From an uncultured Pseudomonadota bacterium (GTDB lineage Bacteria > Pseudomonadota > Gammaproteobacteria > Steroidobacterales > Steroidobacteraceae), in NCBI GenBank assembly GCA_903929455.1, contig CAIYVA010000048.1:1-42666 (forward strand): DNA of 42,666 nt, written 5' to 3'. Shown piece after piece: positions 5,050 through 16,974 of this stretch (positions are counted from its first letter, which is position 1; the number at the start of each line of letters is the position of its first letter). The notes beneath the pieces were generated by a model, which ran no database searches, had not been told where the DNA came from, and saw nothing but the letters and a program-made list of their open reading frames with translations. A program made the translations under genes and the position numbers.

Positions 5050-5077
5050 TTGACAGGTCCGCATAAATATGCAAAAT
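5050..5077 (+). promoter_or_regulatory. Putative sigma-70 promoter of the arginine operon
   Basis: A perfect -35 hexamer TTGACA (5050-5055) is followed after 16 bases by CAAAAT (5072-5077), four of six matches to the -10 consensus. Transcription would start near 5084, only about five bases before the argR ATG at 5089. There is no Shine-Dalgarno sequence, so argR mRNA is probably leaderless or nearly so. The -10 element lies inside the palindromic TATGC cluster described separately. Confidence 0.5.
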
Positions 5078-5093
5078 ATGCGCACTTTATGCA
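5061..5093. promoter_or_regulatory. Putative ArgR operator (ARG-box-like) upstream of argR
   Basis: Four half-sites of the form GCATA/TATGC occur in 33 bases: GCATA at 5061-5065 and TATGC at 5068-5072, 5077-5081 and 5088-5092. The first two form a palindrome around AA. E. coli ARG boxes are two 18-bp palindromes built on TGAAT/ATTCA half-sites; here the half-site would be GCATA. The cluster covers the -10 region, the start point and the argR start codon, so binding should block initiation and give autoregulation of the whole operon. That this is ArgR's site is inferred from position and symmetry. Confidence 0.5.
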
Positions 5094-5565
5094 AACCGCC
5101 CCCCCACTGCCATCTCACTCCGACCCAAGGCCTACCGAGGATCGACGGGACGCCCTCAAGCGAATCATCGGTGAGGGCCGCATCGGGCGGCAGTCTGAAC
5201 TCGTCCGTCTGCTCAAATCAGCAGGGCACGAGGTCACCCAGTCGAGCGTCAGTCGCGACTTGCGCGATCTAGGGGTAGCCAAGATCGGCGACCGCTACGT
5301 ATTAGAGACCAGCGGAAATTCCCCCGCCGCAGGCTTATCGGCGGTCGCCGCGTTTGTACAAAGCATCGTCGCCGCGGGCCCGCATCTGATCGTGATTCGC
5401 ACAACCACCGGCTCAGCCTCTAGCGTCGCAGCGGCCATCGATCAGCGCCAATGGTCAGAAATCGTAGGCACGATCTCAGGAGACGACACCATATTTGTCG
5501 CCACCACCGACCTGCACGCGCAACGCGCGTTACTCGCCCGACTTAAATCCTTTCAACCCCGCTAA
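5089..5565 (+). CDS. argR: Arginine repressor ArgR
   Basis: 158 aa from the chosen ATG, close to the 156 aa of E. coli ArgR. The N-terminal winged helix includes GRIGRQSELVRLLKSAGHEV followed by TQSSVSRDLRDLGV, where the family reads SQxxVSRxLxxxG. The C-terminal oligomerisation and arginine-binding domain ends with GTISGDDTIFVAT; the GDDT motif supplies the paired aspartates that contact arginine. A longer TTG-initiated frame from 5050 exists, but it would start on the -35 hexamer and encode the operator, so I reject it. First gene of the arginine operon, nine bases before argG, so it is expected to repress itself and all seven genes after it. Confidence 0.9.
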   Translation: MQTAPPLPSHSDPRPTEDRRDALKRIIGEGRIGRQSELVRLLKSAGHEVTQSSVSRDLRDLGVAKIGDRYVLETSGNSPAAGLSAVAAFVQSIVAAGPHLIVIRTTTGSASSVAAAIDQRQWSEIVGTISGDDTIFVATTDLHAQRALLARLKSFQPR

Positions 5566-5574
5566 AGAATCCCT

Positions 5575-6807
5575 ATGACCCAATCAACGACGGGCGCTAA
5601 GCCCATTTTGCTTGCATTTTCTGGTGGCCTCGACACGTCTTTTTGCGTGCCCTGGTTAATTGAGACCTATCAACGCCCAGTGATCACCGTCACGGTCGAT
5701 ACCGGTGGCATTGATGCTGAAGCCGCGAAAACACTGGCCGAGCGCGCAAAACAACTCGGTGCGATTAGCCATCATCTGGTGCCAGCGAAACCTGAGTACT
5801 TTGATCGCGTTCTGAAGTTCTTATTAATGGGCAACGCACGACGCGGACAGCTGTATCCTTTTTGCGTGGGCGCTGAACGCGTCTTGCAAGCGCAAATGAT
5901 TGCGAGCATGGCGACTTCGCTTGGATCTACCACGGTGGCACACGGCTGCACCGCGGCCGGCAATGATCAAGTGCGTTTTGAGGTGGCCCTACGCACCCTA
6001 GCGCCCGGCTTAGAGATCTTGGCGCCCGTCCGTGATCATGCGTTTAAACGTACGGAGCAATTGGCATTCCTGCAGAGCAGGCATTTGCCGGTACCGCCGC
6101 ATGGCGCCGCCTACTCCGTGAATCGCGGCTTATGGGGTGTCACGATTGGTGGCACAGAGACGTTAACGTCCACCGGCAGCATTCCGGATGATGCATGGGT
6201 TCTCAGTCGCGATGCGTTTAGCGCACCACGTGCGCCTGCTCGCCACACCCTATCGTTTCAAAGCGGCGTACCTTGCGCACTTGACGGTGTGACCATGGAC
6301 CCGGTGGCGGTGATTGAAAAATTAGAAGCACTGGCTGCACCCTTCGCAATCGGTCGCGGCATTCATTTAGGCGATACCGTCATCGGCACCAAGGGACGGG
6401 TGGCGTTTGAAGCACCAGCGGCTGATGTTCTGCTCACAGCACATCGGGAATTAGAAAAATTAGTGCTCACCGGTCGTCAGGCGCGAATCAAAGAATTGGT
6501 GGCCATGCCTTACGGCGATCTGGTGCATGAAGGCCATCATTTGGATCCCGTATGCCGCGACATTGAGGCGCTACTCATCTCGTCCCAAGAGCGTGTCACA
6601 GGTGATGTTCATGTGCTCTTTAGGCCCGGCAGCGTATTCGTCGAGGGTGTTTCCTCGCCTTGGTCTCTGATGACCGCCTCCAAAGGCGTCTATGGGGAGG
6701 CGGCTGGTGAATGGACACCCGCCGATGCGCTGGGGTACTCCAAGATGTTGGCGCTCCCAGGCACTTTCTATACGCGCGCCGGACAACAAGCAAAGGTTAA
6801 GTCATGA
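5575..6807 (+). CDS. argG: Argininosuccinate synthase ArgG (Xanthomonas / Bacteroidota subtype)
   Basis: Ligates citrulline and aspartate with ATP to form argininosuccinate. 410 aa. The PP-loop reads AFSGGLDTSFCVPWL, followed by VDTGGIDAEAA in place of the common ADxGQ segment, then VAHGCTAAGNDQVRFE and GLWGVTIGGTETL. These variants and the C-terminal GDTVIGTKGRVAFEAP block match the ArgG subtype that I recall from Xanthomonas and Bacteroides, both of which use N-acylornithine transcarbamylases, rather than the E. coli or Bacillus types. It fits the pathway inferred for the operon. The stop overlaps the next gene by four bases (ATGA). Confidence 0.93.
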   Translation: MTQSTTGAKPILLAFSGGLDTSFCVPWLIETYQRPVITVTVDTGGIDAEAAKTLAERAKQLGAISHHLVPAKPEYFDRVLKFLLMGNARRGQLYPFCVGAERVLQAQMIASMATSLGSTTVAHGCTAAGNDQVRFEVALRTLAPGLEILAPVRDHAFKRTEQLAFLQSRHLPVPPHGAAYSVNRGLWGVTIGGTETLTSTGSIPDDAWVLSRDAFSAPRAPARHTLSFQSGVPCALDGVTMDPVAVIEKLEALAAPFAIGRGIHLGDTVIGTKGRVAFEAPAADVLLTAHRELEKLVLTGRQARIKELVAMPYGDLVHEGHHLDPVCRDIEALLISSQERVTGDVHVLFRPGSVFVEGVSSPWSLMTASKGVYGEAAGEWTPADALGYSKMLALPGTFYTRAGQQAKVKS

Positions 6808-7880
6808 AATCTGTCGTTGTAGATAAAATCGCATCCATCACCCAAGCACGCTCACTGGGTCATGAGCTGCGTATTTCCGAGGACATCCCTTGCGAAGAGG
6901 GAGTGATCGTCGTGGTTGAAGTATTAACGGAAAAAAATACCTACAACATGCTGGAACTGACCAGCGGTCGTATGGCTAAAGTATCTAAAGGAGACATTGT
7001 GGCGGGCGCTCTTGGGCACCGCAAAGCACTCTTCGGCTACTCCGGTCATGTGCCGAAGCAAATCAAGCCGGGTGATGTCATTCAGATGCTCAACATCGGT
7101 GGCGTATTGGGTGTGTGCGACTCCGCGAATGCAGATCGTGGCCGCCCTTTTGACTGTCGAGTGCTGGGCGTGGTTCTGCAGTTTCCTTTTTTGGGTGAGC
7201 GCATCGGTGTACCCGCACGCATCGGGCAACGACCGCTCGATCTGGCCGCCTCACTCAACACACAGGGTGTCCCCGTGATTGCCCTAGCAGGCACTTGCAT
7301 GGAGGCAGGTAAGACAGCAGCGGCCTGCGCCATCATCTCGCGCATGCGCCATCGTGGCCTTTCCGTACACGCGTTCAAGGCGACCGGCGTCTCCTTGCGT
7401 CGTGACATTTTAGCCATGGAAGATGCTGGCGCCCGTCGCTCGATGATCTTTACTGACTTTGGGGTGGGCACCACCACGGCAGCCGTAGGCCCCGCACTGA
7501 CGCGCGCCATGCTGACTGAAATGGCGATTGGTCAGCCTGATGTCATCGTCTTTGAATTGGGAGACGGCCTATTAGGCACCTATGGTGTCGAGGCGATCTT
7601 GTCGGCTGCCGACATCCGCCAGTCACTCACTGCCGTTGTACTGTCCGCCAACGATCCAGTGGCCGCCTGGGGCGGCGTCAAACTGTTGCGAGATAAATTT
7701 CTCATCGAACCCGCCGTGGTCACAGGGCCCGCCACCGATAACCAAGTGGGCGTAGACATCATCACCGCACAGATGGGCGTCAGCGCCTTCAATGCGCGAA
7801 GCCATGGAACAGAACTGGGCGATCATCTATTAGAAGTGGCGGGCCTCGCGACTAAGTTTCCAGTGAAGTCGGCGGCCTAA
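6804..7880 (+). CDS. P-loop protein, BioD/DUF1611-like; candidate glutamate N-acyltransferase
   Basis: 358 aa, function not recognised directly. Residues 1-140 form a beta-rich N-terminal region. Residues 158-350 look like a P-loop NTPase-type fold: Walker A LAGTCMEAGKTAA (GxxxxGKT at 163-171), then FKATGVSLRRDIL, then DVIVFELGDGLLGTYGVEAI (from 246). These elements match in order DUF1611 C-terminal domains (GTDxxVGK, ATGQTG, VVEGQGSL) and dethiobiotin synthetase. A DUF1611 protein, DgcN, is reported to acetylate D-glutamate, which is chemically the first step of arginine synthesis. Here it sits between argG and argC with four-base and one-base overlaps, in an operon with no other acylglutamate synthase. 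I infer L-glutamate N-acetyl- or N-succinyltransferase. A regulatory or chaperone role cannot be excluded. Confidence 0.55.
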   Translation: MKSVVVDKIASITQARSLGHELRISEDIPCEEGVIVVVEVLTEKNTYNMLELTSGRMAKVSKGDIVAGALGHRKALFGYSGHVPKQIKPGDVIQMLNIGGVLGVCDSANADRGRPFDCRVLGVVLQFPFLGERIGVPARIGQRPLDLAASLNTQGVPVIALAGTCMEAGKTAAACAIISRMRHRGLSVHAFKATGVSLRRDILAMEDAGARRSMIFTDFGVGTTTAAVGPALTRAMLTEMAIGQPDVIVFELGDGLLGTYGVEAILSAADIRQSLTAVVLSANDPVAAWGGVKLLRDKFLIEPAVVTGPATDNQVGVDIITAQMGVSAFNARSHGTELGDHLLEVAGLATKFPVKSAA

Positions 7881-8947
7881 TGAACGGCGTCAAAAAAATC
7901 CCTACGGTTATTTTAGGCGGTACGGGCTATGTCGCCGGCGAACTCATACGCCTACTACAGGCTCATCCTCATTTCGATCTGCGAGCGATCGTGTCTGACT
8001 CAAAACCAGGCGCCGCGGTAGCTGATGCCTTTCCCCATCTGTCGTCCGTGGTGGGTGAACAATGCTTTGTCTCTATCGAGATCGCGCAACAGTTGCTGTG
8101 TAATGCACCCGATAGCCTCGTATTGGCGGCGGCGCCACACGGCGTATCAGCAACACTCATCGATCAACTACTGACACATACCGCGCAGGCCGGGCGGCAT
8201 CCCAAAGTGGTGGATATTTCTGCTGACTATCGCTTTAGAGAGGCCGACGCCTATCAATCGGTGTATCGACATGCGCATGGCGCACCGCAGCGCTTGAGCG
8301 ATTTCATCTGCGCCCTGCCGGAGCATATCAGCACCCTACCCAGCCAGCACGTCGCTCATCCAGGCTGCTTTGCGACAGCCATGCTGCTATCGATCGTGCC
8401 TTTAATATCGCTCAAGCTGATTGAACCTCGTGTATTTGTCAGCGGTATCACGGGGAGCACAGGATCCGGCCGAACCCCAACTGAAGGGACGCATCATCCT
8501 AGACGGCACAGCGATCTCTATTCTTATGGCGCACTCCAGCATCGGCATGCGCCGGAAGTGGTGTCGATTGTTAAGACCGTAACGGGCGACACCATTGAAT
8601 GTCACTTCGTGCCTCACTCAGGCCCTTTCGCACGTGGCATTCATGCCACGACACAGGCGACTTTGAAAAAGCCGCTCAAATCCGACGAGGTCATGGCGGC
8701 GCTGCACGACTTTTACAAGGGCCAGCCTTTTGTTCGGGTATCAAACCAAGCACCTCACCTTAAAGATGTGGTCAGCAGCAACTACGCTCACTTATCCGCC
8801 ACGACAGACGGCCAAACCGTTGCTGTGGTATCGGCGATCGACAACTTAACCAAGGGCGCGGCCGGCGGCGCCGTGCAATGGGCCAATCGACTTTTTGGCT
8901 TCGATCAAATCACCGGCCTTAGCGCACCCGCGCCCGGTTGGACTTAA
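7880..8947 (+). CDS. argC: N-acyl-gamma-glutamyl-phosphate reductase ArgC
   Basis: NADPH-dependent reduction of N-acylglutamyl phosphate to the semialdehyde, third step of arginine synthesis. 355 aa. Rossmann motif GGTGYVAGELIRLL at 13-26; catalytic Cys163 in AHPGCFAT; SGITGSTGSGRTP and HHPRRHSDLYSYGALQHRHA are typical of the family, and the latter resembles Xanthomonas and Bacteroidota forms. The start overlaps the previous stop by one base (TAATG). Whether the substrate is acetylated or succinylated follows from the transcarbamylase downstream and cannot be read from ArgC. Confidence 0.93.
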   Translation: MNGVKKIPTVILGGTGYVAGELIRLLQAHPHFDLRAIVSDSKPGAAVADAFPHLSSVVGEQCFVSIEIAQQLLCNAPDSLVLAAAPHGVSATLIDQLLTHTAQAGRHPKVVDISADYRFREADAYQSVYRHAHGAPQRLSDFICALPEHISTLPSQHVAHPGCFATAMLLSIVPLISLKLIEPRVFVSGITGSTGSGRTPTEGTHHPRRHSDLYSYGALQHRHAPEVVSIVKTVTGDTIECHFVPHSGPFARGIHATTQATLKKPLKSDEVMAALHDFYKGQPFVRVSNQAPHLKDVVSSNYAHLSATTDGQTVAVVSAIDNLTKGAAGGAVQWANRLFGFDQITGLSAPAPGWT

Positions 8948-8967
8948 TTTCAAGGTATCGGTACATC

Positions 8968-10122
8968 ATGGCCACGGCAGTTCCTAACCACGGCAGTCAC
9001 CTAGCTCACGTGTTCGCGCAGTACCCCTTAGAGGTTGTGCGAGCGCATGGCTGTTGGCTTGAGGGGCGCGATGGACAGCGCGTGGTGGATTTCTATGGCG
9101 GCCATGCGGTGGCCGCACTTGGCTATGGGCATAGCCGTTGGATCGAAGCCTTAGAAGGACAAGCGCGCTCGGTGCAATTTCAAACGAACGCCATCCCGAT
9201 GGCCGTACGTGAACGTGCGGCCGAACGCTTAGTCGCCTTTGCAGGCTTAGGGCTCGATCAAGTGTTTTTTGTGAACTCAGGTGCTGAAGCCAATGAGAAC
9301 GCACTACGTACCGCATTCCGATTAACAGGTCGCCGACAAGCCATTGCGCTTGAGCAAGGGTGGCACGGACGAACAGCCGCCGCTGGTGCTGTGACCTTTG
9401 GGGCGCGCGACAAATGGTATGGCTTCCCGCAGACGCCCTTTGATGTGCAGTGGATCTCGCGCACGGATCCTGCCGGCGCACTTGCGATCAATCACGACAC
9501 GGCCTGCGTGATCGTTGAACCGATCCAAGGCCTTGCCGGCGCTTTTGAAGTACCCACCGATGTACTCCGCGCGCTGCGCGCGCGTTGCACTGAAGTGGGC
9601 GCGCTTTTGATCTTTGATGAAGTGCAGTGTGGTGTCGGTCGCACAGGTTACCCATTTGGCGCTAATCGTGTATCGGTCACACCTGACATGCTGACCACGG
9701 CCAAAGCCCTGGGCGCAGGCTTTCCGGTATCGGCTTTGCTGATGTCACCCCACGTTGCAGGCGCTCTTAAGATTGAAGACATGGGCACCACCTTCGGTGG
9801 CGGACCGCTGGCCTGCGCCATCGTCGAGACCGTCATCGACATTATCGAATCCGAAGGGCTACTCGAGAATGTAAAAAAGATGTCAGCCCTGATTCAGTCA
9901 AGCTGTGTCGGCGGCGTCGTGAGTGGCGTGCAAGGCGCAGGCTTACTCCTGGGTCTTAAAACCACGCGCCCCGCCAAAGCGATCCAAGCAGAATTACTGG
10001 CTCGTGGCATTTTTGTCGGCACAGCGGCTGATCCGCATATCATCAGACTGCTGCCGCCTTTTACGATTGGCCAAGATCATGTGGCACTGCTGGCGCAGGC
10101 ACTGCAGGAGCTTACCCCATGA
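8968..10122 (+). CDS. argD: N-acylornithine aminotransferase ArgD
   Basis: PLP-dependent class III aminotransferase converting N-acylglutamate semialdehyde to N-acylornithine. 384 aa from the ATG chosen; a longer TTG-started frame from 8938 exists, but AAGG lies 12 bases before this ATG and the family starts near here. Visible: NSGAEANENALR (phosphate binding, about 104-115), FDEVQCGVGRTG with the pyridine-contacting Asp217, and the Schiff-base lysine K246 in TTAKALGAGFP. ArgD enzymes commonly accept both acetyl and succinyl substrates (E. coli ArgD also serves as DapC), so it does not decide the acyl group. The stop overlaps argF' by four bases. Confidence 0.92.
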   Translation: MATAVPNHGSHLAHVFAQYPLEVVRAHGCWLEGRDGQRVVDFYGGHAVAALGYGHSRWIEALEGQARSVQFQTNAIPMAVRERAAERLVAFAGLGLDQVFFVNSGAEANENALRTAFRLTGRRQAIALEQGWHGRTAAAGAVTFGARDKWYGFPQTPFDVQWISRTDPAGALAINHDTACVIVEPIQGLAGAFEVPTDVLRALRARCTEVGALLIFDEVQCGVGRTGYPFGANRVSVTPDMLTTAKALGAGFPVSALLMSPHVAGALKIEDMGTTFGGGPLACAIVETVIDIIESEGLLENVKKMSALIQSSCVGGVVSGVQGAGLLLGLKTTRPAKAIQAELLARGIFVGTAADPHIIRLLPPFTIGQDHVALLAQALQELTP

Positions 10123-11120
10123 GTCTTTCCCGATTTTTAGACCTTGCAGATCTCGCGCCTGAGGAAATTCGTGATCTCTTAGCGTTGGCTGAACGATTGC
10201 AGCAACATCCCGAGCCGCAGGCACTCGCAGGGAAAATTCTTGGCCTGATCTTTCTCAATCCTTCGCTTAGAACACTCGCCTCTATGCAGGCTGGCATGGC
10301 GCGCCTCGGTGGAAGTTCCTTCGTGATCACGCCGGGGCAAGGCACGTGGGCGCTGGAGACCCGTAGCGGCGTCGCGATGGATGGCGACGCTGCGGAGCAT
10401 ATTCGCGAGGGCCTACCGGTCCTCGCCTCTTACTGTGACGCACTGGGCATTCGTGCCTTTGCCGCGGGACGCGACCTTGCGATGGATGTAGCAGATACGT
10501 CATTCAAAGCCATGGCAGAGCTCATTCAAAAGCCGCTTATTAATCTTGAGTCAGCCATTAATCATCCCTGCCAATCGCTTGCCGACTGGAAGACCCTGGA
10601 TGACTTGCGCATCGCTCCAAGAACCAAGTTCGTGTTGTCGTGGGTACCCCACCCGCGCGCACTGCCGCTCGCGGTGCCGGCTGCGACAGCCCACATGGCG
10701 GCCCTGCGCGGCCACGACGTCGTCGTGCTACGCCCCGATGGCTTCGCATTGCCCTCTCCTGTGATGGATCGCGTGCATGCCGCTGCCAAACTCAGTGGTG
10801 GCTCAGTAACAGAAACTGATGATCGGGTAGCCGCACTCAAGGGTGCGCACATCGTGTACGCCAAGGAATGGGGCTCGACACGACATTATGGTGACGCGGA
10901 TGGTGACGGAGCCTTACGCCGCCATCTGAGTGACTGGCAATTGAACGAGCAGTCTTTTGCAAACGCCACGCCGAATTGCAAATTAATGCACTGCTTACCG
11001 GTGCGTCGCAATGTGGCAGTCGCAGAGGCGCTACTAGATAGTCCGCGCAGCGTAGTGCTGCACGAAGCACACAATCGATTGGTGGTGCAAATGGCCGTAC
11101 TGTATCGCTTACTAAAATAA
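10119..11120 (+). CDS. argF': N-acylornithine carbamoyltransferase, probably N-succinylornithine type
   Basis: Transfers carbamoyl from carbamoyl phosphate to an N-acylated ornithine, giving N-acylcitrulline. 333 aa. Carbamoyl-phosphate motif NPSLRT at 48-52; HPCQ at 149-152; HCLPVRRN at 291-298. The family marker MDGDxxEH is present as MDGDAAEH, so Ala92 occupies the site that is Glu92 in Xanthomonas acetylornithine enzyme and Pro90 in Bacteroides succinylornithine enzyme. Published mutation of Glu92 to Pro, Ser, Val or Ala turned the former into the latter. HPRALPLAVP and QGTWALET also follow the Bacteroides form (HPRPLPQAVP, QGAWKLET), and the Xanthomonas Lys302 position is Met325. I infer succinylornithine as substrate. 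Confidence 0.88.
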   Translation: MSLSRFLDLADLAPEEIRDLLALAERLQQHPEPQALAGKILGLIFLNPSLRTLASMQAGMARLGGSSFVITPGQGTWALETRSGVAMDGDAAEHIREGLPVLASYCDALGIRAFAAGRDLAMDVADTSFKAMAELIQKPLINLESAINHPCQSLADWKTLDDLRIAPRTKFVLSWVPHPRALPLAVPAATAHMAALRGHDVVVLRPDGFALPSPVMDRVHAAAKLSGGSVTETDDRVAALKGAHIVYAKEWGSTRHYGDADGDGALRRHLSDWQLNEQSFANATPNCKLMHCLPVRRNVAVAEALLDSPRSVVLHEAHNRLVVQMAVLYRLLK

Positions 11121-11170: not shown

Positions 11171-12109
11171 ATGAGCTACCGCCCCGAACAAGCCGCCGCC
11201 ATTCGCGCCATGCGCAGCGCCGCACCGTACATCCGTATGTACAAGGGCAAGGTCTTCATTGTAAAGATCGGTGGCGCAATTTTCGCCAACCCCTCGGCGG
11301 TTCGCTCGCTGGTTGAGCAGGTGGCAATCTTGCATCAAGTGGGCATCCGCGTGGTCTTAGTGCATGGCGGCGGCCCTCAGCTTGATGAGATGCAGCGCTC
11401 CCTAGGCATGGAACCTTTGATGGTCGATGGCCGACGAGTGACCGATGCACAGACCCTCGATGTCACTGTGATGGTCTTAAACGGTCTGCTCAACACGCAA
11501 CTGTTGAGTCTGTGTCGCGAGTTGGGACTCGACGCGGTCGGCATCTCTGGATTAGATGGCGGATTAGTACGCGCGCATAAAAGAGCGCCGGTCAAAAGCG
11601 CGAGTGGCACGCTCGTAGACTACGGACAGGTTGGTGATATCGAGGGCGTCGATCCTCATGTGATTCGGTCGCTATTAGATGCCGGTTATATGCCAGTCGT
11701 TAGTCCACTGTCAGCGGACGCAGAGGGTCATGTACTGAATATCAATGCGGATACCGTCGCCGCACATCTCGGCGCCGCACTCAATGCGGAGAAGCTGCTT
11801 TTGTGTACAGGCGCTGCCGGCATATTCGAGCAACTCGCAGATCCGTCCACCCTGGTGTCATACACCGACTTGGCAGGTCTTAAACGACTGGAGGCGCTCG
11901 GTTGTTTCGCTGATGGCATGCTGCCCAAAGCAGGCGCCATCGAGACGGCCATCAAAGGTGGCGTACGGCGAGTACATGTGATCTCCTTTAAGTCGACGGA
12001 TGCCCTGCTTGCTGAGGTCTTTACCAATGAAGGCCTAGGCACCCTGATCGTGGCGGACATCAAGGCGCTGTCGCCAGCTGAGCAGAGCGGCGGAGCCAAA
12101 TCGCCATGA
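11171..12109 (+). CDS. argB: N-acylglutamate kinase ArgB (stand-alone)
   Basis: Phosphorylates N-acylglutamate, second step of the pathway. 312 aa amino acid kinase fold: IVKIGGAIF at about 35-43, LVHGGGPQLDEMQ, NINADTVAAHL, and the C-terminal EVFTNEGLGTLI. The first 30 residues (PEQAAAIRAMRSAAPYIRMY) resemble the extra N-terminal helix of arginine-inhibited hexameric kinases, so feedback inhibition is likely. Unlike Xanthomonas ArgB, it has no C-terminal GNAT (acetylglutamate synthase) domain; the protein ends soon after the kinase fold. It lies 50 bases after argF' with an A/T-rich spacer and an AGGAA ribosome binding site, and overlaps argH by four bases. Confidence 0.92.
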   Translation: MSYRPEQAAAIRAMRSAAPYIRMYKGKVFIVKIGGAIFANPSAVRSLVEQVAILHQVGIRVVLVHGGGPQLDEMQRSLGMEPLMVDGRRVTDAQTLDVTVMVLNGLLNTQLLSLCRELGLDAVGISGLDGGLVRAHKRAPVKSASGTLVDYGQVGDIEGVDPHVIRSLLDAGYMPVVSPLSADAEGHVLNINADTVAAHLGAALNAEKLLLCTGAAGIFEQLADPSTLVSYTDLAGLKRLEALGCFADGMLPKAGAIETAIKGGVRRVHVISFKSTDALLAEVFTNEGLGTLIVADIKALSPAEQSGGAKSP

Positions 12110-13293
12110 GTCGCCTATGGGACAAGGGGAAGCCGCTTGATGAGGCCGTACTCGAATACACCGCCGGTGAGGACTATGCGCTCGATGCACGACTAGTCCC
12201 CTATGACATTAAGGCATCACTCGCGCATGCCCAAGGATTGCACGCCGCCAAGCTACTATCGGCAGCAGACCTCGCCATCCTGACAACAGCCCTGCAGGAA
12301 TCTGCCGTGGCTTATGAGAGTGGCGCTTGGCAGGTCACGCTACAGCAGGAAGATGGGCAAACGGCACTAGAGGCTCAGCTAACGACCCGAGCGGGCGCTG
12401 TGGGTGGGCGCATTCACTTAGGTCGCTCACGCAATGACCAAGTACTGACCGCTCTGCGCCTTTACCTCAAGGACGTCAATCAGGCGCTCACCGCCGGCAC
12501 CGAAGGCGTCGCCTTGGCGCTTGATCGTTTGGCGGCGAGATATCCAGCGGTGGCACTCCCCGGTTACACCCACATGCAACAGGCTATGCCGAGCTCTATA
12601 TCATTATGGGCGGGCGGCTTTGCCTCTGAGTTTAGAGATGACGCCGCTCAGTTAGGCCACGCGATGGCGCGCGCCGACAAAAACCCGCTCGGTTCGGCCG
12701 CCGGTTACGGCACGCCGGGGCTACCGCTCAATCGCAACGATACCAAGGAACGATTGGGATTTGCTGTCAATCACGAGCCAGTCACTGCGGTACAACTGTC
12801 GCGTGGCAAAGCGGAAGCGCATCTTTTATTTGAAATCTGCTTACTGATGATTGATGCAGGTCGATTGGCCGCCGATCTGTTGTTGTTTTACACACAAGAG
12901 TTTGCATTTGTAACGCTGCCTGATCATTTCACGACCGGCTCATCGATCATGCCGCAGAAGCGCAATCCGGATGTGTTTGAACTGATCCGTGGCCGCAGCA
13001 GCACAGCACACGCCTGTTTGTCAGAGGTATTGGGAATCACTGCCAAACTACCGAGCGGTTATCAGCGCGATCTACAACTCATCAAGGTGCCACTTTTCCG
13101 AGGCATCGATCTCGCGATGCAGACGCTACAGATTTTGCCAATGGCGCTCGACGGATTACAGTTTAGGCCTGACCATCTGCATCTTGATCCGGCCATTCAT
13201 GCAGCTGAGCGCGCCAATCGCTTAGTCGTCGAGGAAGGCATTCCTTTTCGAGACGCCTACCGACGAGTCGCGGCTGAACTCTCAGAAAAATAG
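12106..13293 (+). CDS. argH: Argininosuccinate lyase ArgH, short form
   Basis: Cleaves argininosuccinate to arginine and fumarate; last gene of the operon. 395 aa, shorter than the roughly 460 aa of E. coli ArgH but similar to the Xanthomonas form. Fumarase/aspartase superfamily signature TGSSIMPQKRNPDV carries the catalytic serine loop; GRIHLGRSRNDQV and PGYTHMQQAMP are also clear. An oddity: the usual ED(I/V/C)H motif reads EDGQ, so Gln85 stands where a histidine is nearly always found. The rest of the active site looks intact, so I still call it functional. The convergent fghA stop follows after 16 bases. Confidence 0.9.
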   Translation: MSRLWDKGKPLDEAVLEYTAGEDYALDARLVPYDIKASLAHAQGLHAAKLLSAADLAILTTALQESAVAYESGAWQVTLQQEDGQTALEAQLTTRAGAVGGRIHLGRSRNDQVLTALRLYLKDVNQALTAGTEGVALALDRLAARYPAVALPGYTHMQQAMPSSISLWAGGFASEFRDDAAQLGHAMARADKNPLGSAAGYGTPGLPLNRNDTKERLGFAVNHEPVTAVQLSRGKAEAHLLFEICLLMIDAGRLAADLLLFYTQEFAFVTLPDHFTTGSSIMPQKRNPDVFELIRGRSSTAHACLSEVLGITAKLPSGYQRDLQLIKVPLFRGIDLAMQTLQILPMALDGLQFRPDHLHLDPAIHAAERANRLVVEEGIPFRDAYRRVAAELSEK

Positions 13294-15573: not shown

Positions 15574-16974
15574 ATGAAGCTGCCCCTGCCAACCGCGTTG
15601 TTACTCACGATGCTCACCCTCCCCACGTGGGCAGACAGCGACAACCCTCTTGATTCGAGCGCAGAAGCGCGCGCCATCCTAGCCGCCGTGGTCAGCTTCG
15701 ATACAGCGAGCGGACACGGGCAGGTCCCCAAAATGGCGGAGTATCTGGCCGCTCAATTTAGAGCAGCTGGCTTCGAGCGCACCGACATCACGCTCGTTCC
15801 GTTAGGCGACACGGCCTCACTGGTGGTCCGCTACCACGGCGATGGTCGCGGCGGAAAGCCGATCGCTTTCATGGCGCACATGGATGTCGTCCCGGCCAAT
15901 CGCAGTGAGTGGCAACGCGATCCGTTCACTTTAGTAGAAGAGCAGGGTTATTTTTTTGGGCGCGGCACACTAGACATGAAAGAGGACGTGGCTCTTTTGA
16001 GTCAGACTTTTATCCGATTAAAGCGCAATCATTTTATGCCCAGCCGTGATCTCATCTTGGTATTCACCGGAGATGAGGAAACATCTGAAGAAACCGCCAT
16101 CGACTTGGTGAATCACCACCGCGAGTTAGTCGATGCTGACTATGCACTGAATGGCGACATGGGCAGTGGCGTCCTAGACGCTAGCAGCGGCAAGCCGTTG
16201 CTGTTTTACATTCAAGGCGCTGAAAAAAGCGTCGCTTCCTTCACCTTAACTGCCCGAAATCCTGGTGGCCACAGCTCGCAACCACGACCCGACAATGCCA
16301 TTTACGAACTAGCGAGCGCGCTCACTGCGATCAGTCACTACCAGTTCCCTACCCAAACCAATAGTTGGACAATCAGCGACTTCAAAGCAGCCAGCACCGT
16401 CACACCGGGATCACTCGGCCAGGCAATGGCGCGATTTGCCGAGCACCCCACTGATCAGGCTGCAGCTACGCGTATTGCGCAATCACCACCGTATGTTGGC
16501 AAGCTTAAAACCACCTGTGTGGCCACACAAATCAGTGGTGGCCACGCTGAGAATGCCCTCCCACAGACCGCATCTGCAGTCGTCAACTGCCGGATATTCC
16601 CGGGCACCTCGGCAGAGACTGTGCAAAGCCGCCTTCAGGCATTAGCAGGGCCACGCATCACCATCACCTCGAACTATCCACCCACCTACTCAGATCCCTC
16701 TCCACTCAGATCCGATGTCGTAGCGGCGGTCCAAAAAGCTGTGGATGCTGCAAACCCCGGCGCAGTCGTTGCGCCCACCATGGTTGCCTATGCCACCGAT
16801 GGCTCTGTCTTTCGAAAAGCGGGTATACCAACCTACGGGGTTGGCAGTATGTTTATCAAAGACGCTGAGAACTACTCCCATGGGCTGAACGAGCGCATTC
16901 CAGTTGAGCGTTTTTATAACGGCCTGATCTACTGGGATGTCATCATTCATACGCTGGCGACTGACTCGCACTAG
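15574..16974 (+). CDS. Exported M20 family metallopeptidase
   Basis: 466 aa. The N-terminus (MKLPLPTALLLTMLTLPTWA) is a classic signal peptide, so the protein acts in the periplasm. M20 zinc site: AHMDVVP, with metal-binding His and bridging Asp; GRGTLDMKED; TGDEETSEET, with the catalytic Glu pair; and NGDMGSG. The dimerisation domain includes GGHSSQPRPDNAIYEL, followed by GGHAENALPQTASAVVNCR and a C-terminal ligand in YSHGLNERIP. The family includes dipeptidases, aminoacylases and ArgE. Because it is exported, it is unlikely to be the missing deacylase of the arginine pathway. A role in peptide scavenging is more likely. Confidence 0.85.
   Translation: MKLPLPTALLLTMLTLPTWADSDNPLDSSAEARAILAAVVSFDTASGHGQVPKMAEYLAAQFRAAGFERTDITLVPLGDTASLVVRYHGDGRGGKPIAFMAHMDVVPANRSEWQRDPFTLVEEQGYFFGRGTLDMKEDVALLSQTFIRLKRNHFMPSRDLILVFTGDEETSEETAIDLVNHHRELVDADYALNGDMGSGVLDASSGKPLLFYIQGAEKSVASFTLTARNPGGHSSQPRPDNAIYELASALTAISHYQFPTQTNSWTISDFKAASTVTPGSLGQAMARFAEHPTDQAAATRIAQSPPYVGKLKTTCVATQISGGHAENALPQTASAVVNCRIFPGTSAETVQSRLQALAGPRITITSNYPPTYSDPSPLRSDVVAAVQKAVDAANPGAVVAPTMVAYATDGSVFRKAGIPTYGVGSMFIKDAENYSHGLNERIPVERFYNGLIYWDVIIHTLATDSH

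Follow-up and report, generated by a model that had tools for sequence, protein, structure and literature searches.

Which enzyme carries out the first step of arginine synthesis in an organism whose arginine operon encodes none of the usual ones? That step, a regulated textbook step, is filled by several unrelated enzymes, and the question is raised by a 42,666-nucleotide stretch of DNA (the window) from an uncultured member of the Steroidobacteraceae (Gammaproteobacteria, Steroidobacterales), contig CAIYVA010000048.1 of assembly GCA_903929455.1. Its arginine operon, in the order argR-argG-gene-argC-argD-argF'-argB-argH, includes a gene (6804..7880, + strand) that a reading made from the DNA letters alone (the sequence-only reading) had put forward as the missing glutamate N-acyltransferase, of a class other than GNAT. 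Genome context and fold indicate that this gene probably supplies a succinyl-type pathway with its first enzyme, an N-acyl-L-glutamate synthase outside both the GNAT and the ArgJ types, with L-glutamate + succinyl-coenzyme A (succinyl-CoA) -> N-succinyl-L-glutamate as its most likely reaction. Its candidacy as a non-GNAT glutamate N-acyltransferase is well supported by context (mutual exclusion with a known synthase, no ArgJ, conserved linkage to arg genes). That part of the proposal stands, amended in that the acyl group is more likely succinyl and that the protein, judged by profile cut-off and N-terminal domain, does not belong to the DgcN family.

Mutual exclusion is seen in a set of 148 relatives, the window's own genome included. 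The protein has matches in 124 of these, five of which (G092, G096, G117, G138 and G147) match solely through a paralogue of about 30% identity; at the level of the gene's own family (family A) the carriers number 119, some as fragments at contig ends (in G055 and G073 just a short piece of the C-terminus). A further 17 relatives have the NAT domain of the fused N-acetylglutamate synthase-kinase known from Xanthomonas, and gene and NAT domain occur together in none of the 148. The families of the order, taken by their search labels, divide the same way (eight with the gene, six with the NAT domain, none mixed). ArgJ is found in none of the 148 relatives and in none of five distant carriers, and the ArgA model TIGR01890 reaches its cut-off in none of the 148. 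TIGR01890 also detects ArgB, and gives matches in 133 of the genomes: 115 gene carriers, 17 NAT genomes, and one (G070, 62% complete) with neither. The other 11 genomes that have neither gene nor NAT domain show no ArgB-like match whatever and therefore probably lack the pathway. An expected anti-correlation with argA, argJ and fused argB is thus borne out for fused argB; argA and argJ, absent from every relative, are unusable for such a comparison. The window genome itself has no argJ and no NAT-domain synthase-kinase, and nothing in it exceeds the cut-off of an ArgA model. Because this genome is 95.6% complete and in 244 contigs, a missing gene might sit in a gap, a worry that the survey of relatives mostly answers.

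The gene also keeps its place. In all 141 loci where the gene, argG and argC are all detected (several genomes are counted twice, through two collections), it is flanked by argG and argC, all three on the same strand, and its stop codon falls 1046-1392 bases beyond the argG stop. In the window it overlaps both neighbours, as first described: argG (end 6807) by 4 bases and argC (start 7880) by 1 base. Among the best 80 of 547 homologous loci, those with names belong to Steroidobacteraceae and Gammaproteobacteria, and two come from cultured carriers, Povalibacter uvarum DSM 26723 (L100) and Peristeroidobacter agariperforans KA5-B (L159). A survey of 369 genomes across the class finds nine with a homologue above 300 bits (five in the order, four in other families) and 18 with weaker ones. 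All four carriers outside the order retain argG-gene-argC at 41-45% identity, and in the three of them with long flanks the remaining operon genes are visibly reordered. A survey of 398 genomes across the phylum gives strong matches only in G000 and G761, the latter from another class (564.8 bits). In G761 the close homologue stands in a compact argR-gene-argC-argB cassette (L307, 7089-10739), with argG, argD, argF and argH not detected within the 19 kb fetched around it. The companions of the gene in this cassette are thus the enzymes of steps 2 and 3, the kinase and the reductase; the cassette also suggests gene transfer between classes. Across 14 order-level operons, the gene is conserved as well as argG and better than argB, argC, argD, argF and argH.

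The acyl group can be approached through argF', the transcarbamylase of the operon. Residue 92 of the window's ArgF' aligns with residue 92 of the Xanthomonas enzyme, a column at which the PDB chains of that enzyme vary (E, A, S, V), presumably as specificity mutants. Judged by its numbering, this column is probably position 90 of BT3717. The residue reads Ala in 100 gene-carrying loci (96 distinct sequences), Pro in two and Val in one, the last three being distant carriers; that makes 103 of 103 readable loci, and it is Glu in 14 of 14 fused-enzyme loci (118 argF' loci in total, one carrier locus being cut off at the residue). According to the GapMind account (PMC7311316), specificity is switched by a single residue, number 90 in BT3717, and enzymes with S, P, A or V there prefer the succinyl substrate. 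Because of these residues the carrier operons look succinyl-type and the NAT operons acetyl-type, and acetyl becomes the less likely acyl group for the window given its Ala92. A second ArgF' position, the residue after RRNV, also tracks operon type: carriers have Ala (83), Val (15) or a gap (3), distant carriers Glu (3), and NAT operons Lys (11) or Gln (3).

The gene and its key sites are as follows.

6804..7880, + strand: candidate N-acyl(succinyl)glutamate synthase, 358 residues, family A; no family match above cut-off
6804..7253, + strand: N-terminal all-beta domain, about residues 1-150, with the motif GALGHRxALFGYSGH, from predicted models
7290..7316, + strand: Walker A motif GTCMEAGKT, residues 163-171, from alignments A1 and A4
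7377..7379, + strand: codon of invariant K192, motif AFKATG, from alignments
7455..7457, + strand: codon of invariant D218, from alignments
7554..7556, + strand: codon of invariant E251, motif FELGDG, from alignments

The coding sequence is under strong purifying selection: against two distinct relatives (97% and 85% identity) the nonsynonymous divergence is 0.02 and 0.11, and the synonymous divergence exceeds 2 and is saturated. The gene is real, more than a chance reading frame. The Walker A motif is where the sequence-only reading had put it, and its residues G163, T164, M166, G169, K170 and T171 are, with K192, D218 and E251, among the invariant residues of both alignments. BioD and CTP synthase have a second active-site lysine, and K192 is proposed, by motif, as its counterpart; D218 and E251 are proposed as acids of the magnesium and adenosine triphosphate (ATP) site.

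Pfam and NCBIfam searches with the 358-residue protein return P-loop families only, all sub-threshold (PF07755, MobB, CobQ/CobB), with no GNAT or NAT acetyltransferase domain at E up to 1 and no match to ArgJ (PF01960). Sequence searches of the PDB give chance-level rows or none. In the full-length structure model (26 sequences; mean predicted local distance difference test score, pLDDT, 82.4) the first part is all-beta and the second a P-loop domain. The P-loop half matches CTP synthase (Z 17.0), the DUF1611 structures 2g0t and 2obn (Z 15.8), BioD (Z about 14.5-15) and 7xrj (Z 14.7), the last being DgcN, by its title the one known N-acetyltransferase in this fold space. The N-terminal domain modelled alone is again all-beta (pLDDT 89.9) and finds weak rows only (Foldseek best E 0.52, VIA-align best Z 3.1), at which a fold match may be missed. 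Of the earlier description as a BioD/DUF1611-like domain, the BioD-like half holds by structure and DUF1611 membership falls: PF07755 scores 14.9 bits against a cut-off of 25 (15.9 and 14.2 bits in distant carriers, likewise below it), the Rossmann-like N-terminal domain PF17396 has no match at E up to 1, and the predicted N-terminal domain is all-beta. A true DUF1611 DgcN is encoded elsewhere in the same genome (L067, contig C191, 8753-10740; 7xrj at E 5.3e-88, PF17396 at 1.3e-23), adjoining a gene read as dgcA, and the pair appears from its sequence to be a D-glutamate pathway separate from the arginine gene. PF07755 members were considered as an alternative and set aside, being over cut-off in 60 of the 148 relatives, patchy, and not exclusive of the gene.

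In the mechanism that we favour, the 358-residue protein would acylate L-glutamate with succinyl-CoA, the P-loop half holding the nucleotide part of CoA and working together with the beta domain. ArgB, ArgC, ArgD and ArgF' would then take the succinylated intermediates as far as N-succinylcitrulline, from which a desuccinylase encoded elsewhere (DapE is one possibility) would strip the succinyl group before ArgG and ArgH act. DgcN resembles the protein in its BioD-like P-loop fold, in a Walker A motif with K/R-ATG and E-x-G motifs after it, and in chemistry, N-acylation of glutamate being what is proposed here; it differs in that our protein has the all-beta domain, no PF17396 and no dgcA neighbour (no dgcA lies in the arginine operon). 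BioD and CTP synthase share the fold of the C-terminal half, at 13-20% identity, but the gene has neither a biotin nor a CTP context and encodes an extra beta domain. ArgA2 (BT3761) is a GNAT N-succinylglutamate synthase proposed for Bacteroidetes (PMC9026213 and PMC7311316). The window's system is like it in the proposed reaction, the arginine operon and the succinyl-type transcarbamylase, and unlike it in the protein itself, which is unrelated and has no GNAT match. The Xanthomonas-type fused synthase-kinase (PF04768) is the first-step enzyme of sister families within the order, but its GNAT-type domain is joined to ArgB, its operon includes argE, and the ArgF' residue is Glu.

The remaining operon features are these.

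5050..5565, + strand: argR, arginine repressor, start codon uncertain (PF01316 and PF02863 over cut-off)
5575..6807, + strand: argG, argininosuccinate synthase (Pfam and NCBIfam profile matches)
7880..8947, + strand: argC, N-acylglutamyl-phosphate reductase (TIGR01850 over cut-off)
8938..10122, + strand: argD, N-acylornithine aminotransferase, start uncertain (best model below its cut-off)
10119..11120, + strand: argF', N-acylornithine carbamoyltransferase (NF003384 over cut-off)
10392..10394, + strand: codon of ArgF' Ala92, the acyl-specificity position (alignment to the Xanthomonas enzyme)
11171..12109, + strand: argB, acylglutamate kinase without an acetyltransferase domain (TIGR00761 over cut-off; PF00696 only)
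12106..13293, + strand: argH, argininosuccinate lyase, 395 residues (TIGR00838, 279.2 bits against a cut-off of 279.5)

Within the argD frame there is a further ATG, in frame, at residue 11. ArgF' scores above the cut-off of the N-acetylornithine carbamoyltransferase model. ArgB (312 residues) consists of the amino-acid kinase domain alone, that is, a stand-alone kinase, and a pathway on the LysW carrier is rejected, as ArgB scores 212.8 bits, over the argB cut-off of 151.3 and below the cut-offs of the LysW-type kinase models. The ArgH match ends near position 386 of a 455-position model, its C-terminal part short or missing. No operon gene matches a GNAT in Pfam or NCBIfam, hence the operon has no GNAT ArgA2. 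The sequence-only reading, which had every enzyme from kinase to lyase present and only the synthase missing, was right that the operon has no known synthase and overlooked a second gap, a deacylase, which is likewise missing from the operon of the window.

This second gap has a counterpart in the NAT operons. In one of them (L230) an M20 enzyme that passes the acetylornithine deacetylase model follows argG, and is followed by a 439-residue fused synthase-kinase passing its own model; of the 17 NAT loci, 15 contain an M20 protein that a DapE query detects. Among 142 gene-carrying loci the same query has a match in the window alone, at 15574-16974, outside the operon. Short loci are frequent among the 142; 85 span 9 kb or more and include argH, and the query finds no M20 protein in the operon of any of these 85. 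The window genome has four M20 matches. Of the three scanned (all but L278), one is DapE over cut-off and none exceeds the ArgE cut-off, so that ArgE elsewhere in the genome was rejected for these three; the other two (the window protein and L276) fall in the hypothetical subfamily PRK09133 and start like secreted proteins. The window's M20 protein has an apparent signal peptide and is encoded some 2.3 kb downstream of argH. For the later step of a succinyl pathway, a desuccinylase of the DapE kind could be suitable.

Several observations weigh against the synthase assignment. Because the gene-carrying operons also lack a deacylase, mutual exclusion cannot by itself tell a synthase from a deacylase. 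The association of gene and fused enzyme is deep and exceptionless, but it represents one historical switch and not many, because a tree of 47 argF' proteins needs only a single change between carriers and NAT operons, and shows no independent origins. (In this tree the carriers that do not belong to the order sit apart on a deep branch of their own, with long rows; L211 and L208 are on long branches.) An hhalign comparison of the family with 22 DgcN-like sequences is insignificant (probability 3.9, E 0.011, residues 93-195 only). The window genome has 13 GNAT matches, one of which could do the first step, and evidence that the cultured carriers grow without arginine was not found in the open-licence literature, including PMC6208644. 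Among the rivals to which these points lend room, it is quite improbable that the gene is itself the missing deacylase (an N-acylcitrulline or N-acylornithine hydrolase), the synthase being another protein elsewhere. The M20 enzyme of the fused-synthase operons does occupy, after argG in those 15 of 17 loci, the slot that the gene has in the others, and the 85 longer loci with gene and argH show no operon M20. But a BioD-like P-loop fold would be an unlikely amidohydrolase, the G761 gene travels with argC and argB and not with argF or argG, and the genome's DapE could desuccinylate. The fold and the argC-argB cassette are our reasons for favouring a synthase over a deacylase. A regulatory or accessory protein, with N-acylglutamate made by a GNAT elsewhere, is just as doubtful. 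The 13 GNATs give it material: L074, which from its sequence would be the best candidate for the first step, has a weak ArgA-model match (24.8 bits against a cut-off of 202.85), L070 a weak match to an N-acetylglutamate synthase model (31.6 bits against 280), and in G116 a homologue of L074 (L037, 475-993; 135.9 bits) lies just downstream of argH. However, all 13 fall below the cut-offs of the N-acylglutamate synthase models (scans at E up to 1e-5 for 10 of them and at 1e-10 for three), a GNAT of the L074 type was found beside argH in one of the 70 carrier operons that extend 1 kb or more downstream, and there is no need for a merely accessory protein to be mutually exclusive with the fused synthase across all 148 genomes.

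A different chemistry is unlikely, in which the protein is an ATP-dependent ligase that, in the manner of BioD and CTP synthase, spends ATP on activating one substrate, succinate or glutamate, and couples the two with no CoA involved. In its favour, the structures that the P-loop half matches best belong to ligases and synthetases that use ATP, the invariant K170/T171, K192, D218 and E251 resemble the ATP and magnesium set of BioD and CTP synthase, and by motif alignment the genome's own DgcN has Arg at the K192 position of the family. Against it, DgcN, the only related fold reported as a glutamate N-acyltransferase, is reported to use acetyl-CoA, in keeping with its entry title of N-acetyltransferase, and every arginine-pathway synthase known to us uses acyl-CoA or transacylation. 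About as unlikely is the extended form of this idea, in which a two-domain P-loop family ligates succinate and glutamate to N-succinyl-L-glutamate at the expense of ATP, giving most of a gammaproteobacterial order a CoA-free entry into arginine, with the M20-adjacent paralogues belonging to a wider N-acylation family.

If the gene does encode a synthase outside the GNAT and ArgJ types, arginine synthesis would gain a new class of enzyme for its first step, and an unnamed family of P-loop proteins would gain a function. Such a synthase would account for how arginine could be made by the many Steroidobacterales whose genomes show no known one, and would extend the succinyl-type pathway of Bacteroidetes to Proteobacteria. 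In the open-licence literature we found no description of the enzyme, no report linking DUF1611 with arginine biosynthesis, and no paper joining DgcN, N-acetyltransferase and D-glutamate.

The paralogues are homologous to the family over the full length (hhalign E 2e-51), and differ from it in their identity of about 30% and in lying outside arginine operons. Of 31 paralogue loci, 13 have a neighbouring M20 peptidase and 16 an ABC exporter. In L052-L060, L062, L063 and L213 the paralogue adjoins the M20 peptidase, often together with a flavin reductase-like gene, and the two perhaps form an acylation-deacylation pair. A second paralogue group (L061, L064-L066 and L215-L227) adjoins an MsbA-like ABC exporter, a phosphate-selective porin-like gene and an esterase.

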